A DNA stretch of 40,330 nt from Candidatus Desulfolinea nitratireducens (GTDB lineage: Bacteria > Chloroflexota > Anaerolineae > Anaerolineales > Villigracilaceae). Below are positions 17,522 to 19,037 of this stretch, one piece after another; the first letter of the stretch is position 1; each line of letters begins with the position of its first letter. Location: the NCBI GenBank assembly GCA_014382535.1, contig JACNJN010000157.1, forward strand, positions 1 through 40,330, in the 5' to 3' direction. The notes below the pieces were generated by a model. The model was not told where the DNA came from. It saw nothing but the letters and a program-made list of their open reading frames with translations, and did not search any database. A program made the translations under genes and the position numbers.

Positions 17522-17549
17522 TTGACACCAGCCCCGCCTATGCTATAAT
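17522..17549 (+). promoter_or_regulatory. Consensus sigma70 promoter of the L21-L27-L31 operon
   Basis: TTGACA (17522-17527), a 16-bp spacer and TATAAT (17544-17549) give the best promoter in the window. It predicts a leader of about 125 nt before rplU. Within the leader, CTGAG (near 17568) can pair with CTCAG (near 17618), and CGCA/TGCG form a small hairpin just before the Shine-Dalgarno (GGAG). This is compatible with autogenous control by a ribosomal protein, though no known L21 leader motif was recognised with confidence. Confidence 0.8.
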
Positions 17550-17681
17550 ACAACCCGTTAAGCTCCTGCTGAGTTCTTGGCCGGGGCAAATTCTTGTAAA
17601 AACCCAAGCTTTCCCGCACTCAGGCGCTGGGACGAAGACCATCCTCGCAGGGGTTGCGGTGAAGTGAAGATTGGAGAAAAA

Positions 17682-18203
17682 ATGAAGTACGCTATTGTTG
17701 AAAATGGCGGCAAGCAGTATAAGGCCGTCGAGGGTGAGACGATCGAGGTTGATCGCTTGCCTGATGAAGTGGGCGATAAGATTGAACTAGATCGTGTTCT
17801 GATGGTTGTGGATGATGAAAAATTCACAGTTGGAACCCCTGAAGTTGGCGGTGTAAAAGTTAGTGCAACTGTTGCAGCGCATTTCAAGGGGAAAAAAGTG
17901 ATCGTTTTCAAATATCACCCAAAGAAACGTTATCGTCTTAAAAAAGGACATCGTCAACAGTATACTCGCTTGGAGATCAATGCAATTGGCAAAGCTGCGG
18001 TCATAAAGGCAGCAAAAGCTGAAGCGACGCCCGTAAAGGAAGAGAAAGTCGAACCCAAAACGGCTGAGCCAGTTGCAGTTAAGAAACCTGCAGCAAAAGA
18101 ATCTGCTGCCAAGAAACCGGCGGCAAAGAAACCGGCAGCCAAGAAACCCGCTGCGAAGAAGCCTGCGGCGAAAAAACCCGCCAAAACGGCGAAAAAAAAT
18201 TAG
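17682..18203 (+). CDS. rplU: Ribosomal protein bL21 with long Lys/Ala/Pro C-terminal tail
   Basis: Large-subunit protein L21 binds 23S rRNA. The core (residues 1-~103; MKYAIVENGGKQYKAVEGE to KKRYRLKKGHRQQYTRLEI, each a family hallmark) is of normal length. It is followed by about 70 residues rich in Lys, Ala and Pro, ending in five tandem copies of a KKPAA-type unit that resemble histone-H1-like tails. ATG 17682 is set by the GGAG upstream and by the L21 N-terminus; the 35 codons in frame before it belong to the leader. L27 follows after 18 bp, the universal bL21-bL27 pairing. The tail may be an rRNA- or nucleic-acid-binding extension, and its repeats probably vary between strains. Confidence 0.95.
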   Translation: MKYAIVENGGKQYKAVEGETIEVDRLPDEVGDKIELDRVLMVVDDEKFTVGTPEVGGVKVSATVAAHFKGKKVIVFKYHPKKRYRLKKGHRQQYTRLEINAIGKAAVIKAAKAEATPVKEEKVEPKTAEPVAVKKPAAKESAAKKPAAKKPAAKKPAAKKPAAKKPAKTAKKN

Positions 18204-18221: not shown

Positions 18222-18479
18222 ATGGCACATAAAACAGGTGGCGGTTCAACCCGCAACGGTCGAGATAGTAAATCAAAACGTCTTGGTGTAAAAAAATACG
18301 CAGGCGAGTCCGTGATTTCCGGAAATATTTTGGTTCGCCAGCGCGGTACGCGCATTAAACCCGGCCTCAATGTTGGCGTTGGGCGTGATCACACTCTCTT
18401 CGCTGTTGCTGAGGGTAAGGTGATGTTCGATATAAACCGTGGACGCAAACGAGTAAATGTTGTTCCGGTTCAAAGCTAA
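18222..18479 (+). CDS. rpmA: Ribosomal protein bL27
   Basis: The 85-residue protein has the L27 signature: [16 protein letters not shown], then [11 protein letters not shown] and the conserved [11 protein letters not shown]27 lies at the peptidyl-transferase centre with its N-terminus near the tRNA CCA ends. The N-terminus starts directly at AHKTGGGS, without the cleavable extension of Firmicutes, so no Prp-type processing is needed. It follows rplU by 18 bp and precedes rpmE by 24 bp in one operon. Confidence 0.97.
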
Positions 18480-18503
18480 GCCTCACTGCAAAAAGGAAAG
18501 AAA

Positions 18504-18971
18504 ATGAAGCCCGAAATTCATCCCACTTATTACCCAGAATCCAAAGTTTCCTGCGTGTGCGGGAAAACATGGATAACTGGTTCTACTCAGCCCGAAATTC
18601 ACACAGAAATTTGCTCGAATTGTCATCCCTTCTACACTGGTGATTTACAACGTCTCGTTGATACCGAGGGTCAGGTTGATCGTTTCTACAAACGCTTGCA
18701 GGCTCGCCGGGAGTATGTTGATGCCAAAGATGCGAAGGAACAGGCGCTTATCTCTCCAACCCGCCCAATCGCGGAATTGGATCTCGGCAAACGCGGAACT
18801 GATGCCTTGTTGAAAGCTGGCATTACCGATGTTGGCGAATTTATGAAAAAATATAATGAAGGCGAGAAAGTTGTACTAGCGATTACTGGCTTTGGTCAAA
18901 AATCGCTAATTGACGCCAAAAAGGCTTTGCGCGCGATGGGCTACGACCTCTCTGAGGTTGCGGAAGCCTAA
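18504..18971 (+). CDS. rpmE: Ribosomal protein bL31 fused to an RpoA-CTD-like domain
   Basis: Residues 1-~70 are a zinc-type bL31: MKPEIHPTYY, then C17-x-C19 and C37-x-x-C40 (CVCGK and CSNCHPFYTG), the four-Cys zinc site. Normal L31 ends near residue 70-75. Here a 10-residue linker leads into a domain at about 84-155 (RPIAELDLGKRGTDALLKAG, then ITGFGQKSLIDAKKALRAMG) that lines up with the C-terminal domain of RNA polymerase alpha: R-P-I-x-x-L-D-L, a conserved Arg, L-x-x-A-G-I, G-E and the helix-hairpin-helix G-x-K-S-L-x-x-x-K. In alpha that fold binds UP-element DNA and activators. Fusion with L31 within one uninterrupted frame is unusual. A terminator follows. Confidence 0.92.
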   Translation: MKPEIHPTYYPESKVSCVCGKTWITGSTQPEIHTEICSNCHPFYTGDLQRLVDTEGQVDRFYKRLQARREYVDAKDAKEQALISPTRPIAELDLGKRGTDALLKAGITDVGEFMKKYNEGEKVVLAITGFGQKSLIDAKKALRAMGYDLSEVAEA

Positions 18972-19003: not shown

Positions 19004-19037
19004 AATGGGCAGAAGCATTCGCGACTGCCCATTTTTT
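19004..19037 (+). terminator. Intrinsic terminator of the ribosomal-protein operon
   Basis: AATGGGCAG (19004-19012) pairs with CTGCCCATT (19025-19033), followed by a T-run to 19037. It lies 33 bp after rpmE. Confidence 0.88.

Follow-up and report, generated by a model that had tools for sequence, protein, structure and literature searches.

The window, by which we mean the whole analysed stretch of 40,330 nucleotides from Candidatus Desulfolinea nitratireducens (contig JACNJN010000157.1), harbors a ribosomal-protein unit with the gene order rplU-rpmA-rpmE, in which rpmE comes last. The product of rpmE is a protein of 155 amino acids encoded by a single unbroken open reading frame at 18504-18971 on the forward strand, from ATG to TAA, as is evident from the list of open reading frames of the window and from the translation. 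The initial annotation had described an uninterrupted frame in an ordinary ribosomal-protein operon, and both parts of this description hold. The features of the unit are the following:

17522-17549, forward strand: sigma-70 type promoter-like site TTGACA-16-TATAAT upstream of rplU, 12/12 consensus matches
17682-18203, forward strand: rplU, bL21 with a Lys/Ala/Pro-rich C-terminal tail (named by eye)
18222-18479, forward strand: rpmA, bL27 (named by eye)
18494-18497, forward strand: AGGA, likely ribosome-binding site of rpmE, six bases 5' of the ATG (by eye)
18504-18698, forward strand: bL31 core, residues 1-65, four Cys (PF01197; NF000612, TIGR00105)
18699-18749, forward strand: linker, residues 66-82 (AlphaFold2 model m4aff64d1bc7e)
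18750-18953, forward strand: alpha-CTD-like domain, residues 83-150 (PF03118, profile, fold, conservation)
19006-19037, forward strand: terminator-like 7-bp stem TGGGCAG/CTGCCCA followed by six T, 3' of rpmE (by eye)

The open reading frame of rplU spans 17577-18203 and its start was set at MKYAIVENGG. The bL21 of the window ends in a long Lys/Ala/Pro repeat tail, the length of which differs widely among relatives, and no folded extra domain was found in the tail of the window protein. The promoter scan returned 3 sites in the region against 2.2 expected from shuffles; only the perfect 12/12 match before rplU is notable as a putative promoter. The terminator-like stem was missed by the automated scan, since its loop is longer than the scan permits. 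A gene on the opposite strand was considered and rejected: the one frame translated contains three stops, and no minus-strand open reading frame of at least 80 amino acids lies over 18504-18971.

The N-terminal part of the rpmE product is a four-Cys bL31, just as it had been read from the sequence at the outset. The Pfam family PF01197 (Ribosomal_L31) covers residues 1-65 with an E-value of 1.4e-26 and 92.9 bits (cut-off 27), the NCBIfam models NF000612 (86.1 versus 70) and TIGR00105 (81.3 versus 38.35) are above their cut-offs as well, and all 44 rows of alignment A1, that of the window protein among them, have C17, C19, C37 and C40. The protein shares with bL31 (rpmE) in general the four-Cys core, the location in a ribosomal-protein unit and the lack of a second L31 in its genome, but it differs by about 85 extra residues, which make up a prolonged helix and another folded domain; the length of the E. 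coli bL31 is given as 70 amino acids in the abstract of PMC9966373. In the genome of the window there is one L31, and rpoA is a gene apart from it, complete and with a CTD. Of the 36 genomes sampled from the order, 35 have no second L31 (the exception, G337, has two L31 matches), and thus the fused bL31 is expected on the standard ribosome and not on a stress variant. Homology and the lack of a second L31 together suggest that the protein takes the place of bL31 in the ribosome at bridge B1b.

The second domain had been annotated as alpha-CTD-like, and the profile data agree with this assignment. PF03118 (RNA_pol_A_CTD) matches residues 83-143 with an E-value of 4.6e-6 and 26.7 bits, above the curated cut-off of 23.8. 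Within residues 61-152 there are also matches to the NCBIfam rpoA models (best E-value 4.9e-8), with scores far under the whole-RpoA cut-offs, as expected for a single domain; the protein as a whole is not an RpoA and has bL31 in place of the alpha N-terminal domains. When residues 83-155 were compared with the PDB by sequence, 27 of the 28 matches were RpoA and the remaining one was a designed protein. PF03118 is found at E ≤ 0.1 in 41 of the 44 aligned relatives, window included, with a best value of 4e-14, well past anything that chance would give. A profile of 79 domains (that of the window and those of 78 of the 80 fetched loci) was searched against the whole set of PDB sequences. RpoA accounts for every one of the top 51 among the 58 matches (E-values from 2.2e-11 to 0.0046), and the next match is a helicase at E 0.039.

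The predicted structures point in the same direction. The domain-only model has a mean pLDDT of 73.5 (about 80 in the folded core) and a pTM of 0.57, and the 50 matches listed of the 86 that Foldseek found for it all come from RNA polymerase or alpha-CTD entries, with a TM-score by target of up to 0.91 and with E-values that are modest for a short model (best 0.011, none ≤ 0.001). VIA-align, which only re-aligned the Foldseek candidates, gave alpha chains up to Z 9.6 with an rmsd of 1.4 over 62 residues, followed by HhH domains of RAD51 with Z up to 7.5; for helical models, such Z values can stem from an arrangement that is common. The search with the full-length AlphaFold2 model m4aff64d1bc7e (mean pLDDT 76.7, pTM 0.43) returned mainly ribosomal L31 chains, and an RNA polymerase alpha chain took rank 46 among the 50 matches listed. 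As both models are of middling confidence, the relative placement of bL31 and the domain is not fixed by them. A generic HhH domain instead of an alpha-CTD is not favoured by profile or fold, though HHH_5 is also matched by 10 of the 44 aligned relatives: in the comparison of RpoA-CTD with unrelated HhH folds, which the initial annotation had proposed as a check, RpoA scores higher by both approaches. The affiliation of the second domain with the alpha-CTD family is confirmed, and the sequence profile is the main proof, stronger than the fold.

A scan of 84,980 species genomes with patterns from the window protein yielded 574 relatives, and the best 80 of them were kept. All 80 are Chloroflexota by title and all carry the domain in frame, two with a start cut by a contig end; the named strains with the fusion are Thermanaerothrix daxensis GNS-1, Longilinea arvoryzae KOME-1 and Ornatilinea apprima P3M-1. 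A separate survey sample of 400 Chloroflexota genomes drawn evenly, 345 of which lie outside the class of the window, was searched with the full-length profile. All 36 genomes sampled from the window's order have the fusion (25 from its own family, with the own genome among them, and 11 from elsewhere in the order), and so do 4 of the 19 remaining class genomes (families f9, f11 and f13). The total for the class is 40 of 55 genomes, so that the occurrence of the fusion in relatives, named beforehand as a further check, is established. Among the matches listed from the 400 genomes no other extends uninterrupted past profile position 99. In 8 of the 15 unfused genomes of the class and in 2 genomes outside it the L31 frame was read, and L31 is followed there by a short charged tail and no domain.

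Altogether 125 L31 frames were compared. The fusion reads in one frame to profile position 140 at least in 115 loci (111 of them unique), which rules out an artefact or a frameshift chimera, and the other 10 are loci that were picked because they appeared to be unfused. For three genomes (G397, G387 and G337) a stop was reported within the aligned region; it must fall after position 140, since the frames are open to that point. The domain is under purifying selection, with dN/dS values of 0.03-0.19 in the 25 pairs listed of 134, and its mean pairwise identity is 0.51 versus 0.69 for the bL31 core. On an RpoC tree of 26 genomes, from which locus L156 was left out as the motif was not found, the presence and absence of the domain needs 2 changes; a possible history is that a 16-genome clade (SH-aLRT 100) gained it at its root and that the branch to families f5 and f12 lost it. 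The simplest reading of the tree is that the domain was added once in an ancestor within Anaerolineae. The linkage is thereby confirmed as real, and it is conserved throughout the order as sampled and in a part of the class. The L31 proteins of L115 and L116 (f9) and of L125 and L126 (f5) lack the four cysteines and have WSG(T/S)HPFYTG instead; the f9 proteins stand outside alignment A1. The extra domain is kept in the two f9 proteins and absent in the two f5 proteins, and since the former retain it without the four cysteines, the domain is not tied to the zinc form of L31.

The residues of the domain were compared, in the numbering of E. coli RpoA (NC_000913), between the 111 unique fused proteins and the RpoA of 12 genomes of the class. 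R265, N268, G296, K298, S299 and E302, which we take to be the DNA-contact set (265 determinant) of the alpha-CTD, are each found in 12 of 12 RpoA proteins. Among the 111 fused proteins, R265 is kept in 98, G296 in 110, K298 in 86 and S299 in 77, N268 is kept in 16 (D in 35, E in 32) and E302 in 4 (D in 84); the window protein has R, D, G, K, S and D at these positions. The L31 domains as a group do not display the DNA-binding 265 determinant. Position 294 is Gly in 106 of the 111 fused proteins versus Asn in all 12 RpoA, which gives the L31 domain a Gly-x-Gly hairpin. Positions 304, 305 and 308 on the hairpin helix are each Lys or Arg in 111/111 fused proteins, and the class RpoA is basic at 304 in 7, at 305 in 0 and at 308 in 6 of 12. 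In the window protein the hairpin helix comprises residues 132-144 and the basic triad is K139, K140 and R143. The mean net charge of the helix 296-309 is +4.3 in L31, -0.7 in class RpoA and -0.3 in NusA, and E. coli RpoA has +1. Judging from the hydrophobic positions 300, 303 and 307, the side chains at 304, 305 and 308 would point outward. Taken together, the substitutions suggest that the nucleic-acid surface of the domain has shifted from minor-groove DNA to the RNA backbone.

The L31 domain is thus similar to RpoA-CTD (PF03118) in scoring above the family cut-off, in its HhH fold and in the mostly kept R265, G296 and K298, and it has the same three-residue longer loop relative to E. coli as the RpoA of Chloroflexota. 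It differs in that it stands on a ribosomal protein, has mostly lost N268, N294 and E302 and is basic at 305 and 308; the L31 domains also lie apart from RpoA on the domain tree, with weak support. The C-terminal domain of the class NusA is the other close likeness: it is found by the L31 profile and has the same loop length and a G-x-G hairpin, but it is acidic (mean net charge -5.1 over 7) and has no basic triad. This alpha-CTD/HhH-like domain was seen in NusA (named by eye) of seven loci of the class, including L140 of the own genome (C91), and can be set beside the acidic repeats AR1/AR2 of E. coli NusA; the NusA of L140 has a long acidic and then basic tail after the domain. The domain tree, built on 68 columns, places the L31 domains and two outliers on one side of a branch (support 75/84) and gives a p-AU of 0.293 for a clade made up of the 51 L31 rows only; it does not tell RpoA, NusA and other copies apart as the parent of the L31 domain.

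Domains of the same kind were encountered in several other proteins. In L034 the bL21 upstream of rpmE ends in an alpha-CTD-like domain nested in the L31 group; it groups with the bL31 of L034 and L043 (support 98/97) and is probably a copy from the neighbouring gene. A 442-aa membrane protein of L143 (G168) has a bactofilin-like polymer-forming start (by eye) and an L31-type domain at its end, which groups with a bL31 of Leptolinea (support 99/87) and has lost the hairpin glycine. RpoC of L145 (G361), L149 (G088) and L150 (G184) contains an alpha-CTD-like HhH insert of about 60 residues near residue 730-796. This insert was first found with the L31 profile (E-values from 2e-7 to 7e-6) and scores 1e-14 to 1e-16 with a profile that contained these three sequences. 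It occurs in 3 of 27 RpoC loci, in families f6, f10 and f14 of the class, all without the L31 domain, and is absent in the 24 other loci, two of which (L162 and L173) were judged from split profile matches only; split matches leave no room for the insert in G192, G208 and G128, and in a 28th genome, G152, RpoC is cut by a contig end. The idea that the RpoC insert substitutes for the L31 domain was dropped: its origins are few and four families of the class have neither, which gives no evidence of exchange. The alpha-CTD-type fold is employed in this class by several components of the gene-expression apparatus.

Passages of PMC9966373 place the C-domain of E. coli bL31 on the 30S head, in contact with S13 and S19 and extending to S14, with the C-terminus at uS14 and bound to helix 41 of the 16S rRNA; a passage of PMC10931766 agrees with PMC9966373 on the bL31 bridge. 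In the fused protein the domain begins about 12-15 residues past the normal end of bL31, and in the AlphaFold2 model a helix is predicted for residues 55-82, in which the linker 66-82 prolongs the bL31 helix. As in other bacteria, the bL31 part would connect the 50S and 30S subunits and end on the 30S head. The prolonged helix would carry the extra domain past the bL31 end, to a place above the head close to uS14 and helix 41; we infer this location from the position of the E. coli bL31. In the mechanism that we propose, the contacts to promoter DNA would have been abandoned through the change of N268 to an acid, of N294 to Gly and of E302 to Asp, and the domain would serve as a helix-hairpin-helix RNA clamp with the triad 304/305/308 gripping the RNA backbone. 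The most likely target would be the 16S rRNA of the head, by which bL31 and the B1b bridge may be held more firmly. We give about an even chance to this reading of the sequence data, in which an alpha-CTD fold has become an anchor that grips RNA on the 30S head, and the basic patch could also serve DNA, mRNA, 23S or 5S rRNA or an acidic protein.

The 16S rRNA was compared between 11 genomes with the domain and 7 without it, as 18 of 33 genomes yielded a 16S sequence and the genome of the window yielded none. No near-fixed 16S site in the head tracks the domain in this sample; four near-fixed sites were found, all outside the head and not common to f9. The stretch of helix 41 is 60-61 nt long in 10 of the 11 genomes with the domain (it is missing from the other), 62 nt in 5 genomes of the class without the domain and 60 nt in 2 genomes of other classes, and the difference of one base is explained by shared ancestry. 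On balance, the 16S comparison is negative for the RNA anchor, though a protein can bind unchanged RNA. Helix 39 of the 16S rRNA (E. coli 1116-1157) has 28 nt versus 42 in all 18 Chloroflexota examined, with or without the domain.

The initial annotation had offered two functions, a tether between ribosome and RNA polymerase or its factors and the binding of rRNA. The loss of most N268 and E302 residues, the change of N294 to Gly and the basic triad specific to L31 make rRNA binding the better fit, and no direct evidence was found for the tether, by which the domain would bind RNA polymerase, NusA or NusG from the 30S head and form a built-in link between transcription and translation. Such a link is in keeping with the membership of the domain in an RNA polymerase domain family and with the finding that NusA of the window's genome and of 6 other sampled genomes has a C-terminal domain found by the L31 profile. 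In E. coli the AR2 of NusA binds the alpha-CTD (PMC12297416), one early-expressome structure has RNAP atop the 30S head and the NusG-CTD at uS10 (PMC12820379), and the review PMC10953045 names NusA and NusG as bridges between ribosome and RNAP. However, no pattern specific for partner binding was found in the domain, and the strongest L31-specific signal is the basic patch on its nucleic-acid face. Additionally, RpoA of the window's genome retains its own CTD, and the RpoC insert of the alpha-CTD type occurs only in three families without the L31 fusion, which leaves no matched pair. We regard the tether as unlikely, and its specific form, in which a permanent alpha-CTD on the Anaerolineae 30S head would engage NusA, NusG or RNAP and couple the two machines without a soluble adaptor, as slightly more unlikely.

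One would argue that a mobile domain simply entered rpmE and was retained as padding or as protein-protein glue on the head, being weakly useful. Related domains have indeed moved repeatedly (the bL21 of L034, the membrane protein of L143 and four bL21 with another HhH), 15 of the 55 class genomes have no domain and the RpoC tree permits a loss; yet the domain is found in 36/36 genomes of the order, its dN/dS is low and three of its positions are basic in 111/111 proteins, which makes this explanation quite improbable in our view. A domain that binds DNA or nascent mRNA without sequence preference, by which ribosomes would be kept near the nucleoid or the mRNA guarded, would make use of the HhH fold with its mostly kept R265, G296 and K298 and of the conserved basic triad. 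This would be difficult to reconcile with N268 and E302 being mostly lost though they are 12/12 in class RpoA, and an acid at 268 would be unfavourable on a DNA backbone; we hold it to be improbable as well.

The fusion joins the ribosomal proteins that carry an extra domain in one lineage, and what sets it apart is the membership of this domain in an RNA polymerase family. In every sampled genome of the order, a core ribosomal protein has a domain of the alpha-CTD family of RNA polymerase at its end, and this domain would lie on that face of the ribosome which RNA polymerase overlies in one coupled complex. Either a DNA-binding module of the polymerase type became a part of the ribosome, as a re-use of a domain between machines, or the domain joins both. 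In the literature searched by titles and abstract starts, with subscription journals largely outside, an L31-alpha-CTD fusion was not found described. The bL21 and uS2 of Alphaproteobacteria carry C-terminal HhH domains. They resemble the fusion as an HhH domain appended to a ribosomal protein, but their HhH is of another type and not an alpha-CTD. Within the class, the bL21 of L035, L049, L105 and L110 (rplU upstream of rpmE) is comparable to them by eye: it carries a different HhH-like domain, of the IEGIGPKVAEAL type by eye, which precedes the Lys/Ala-rich tail.
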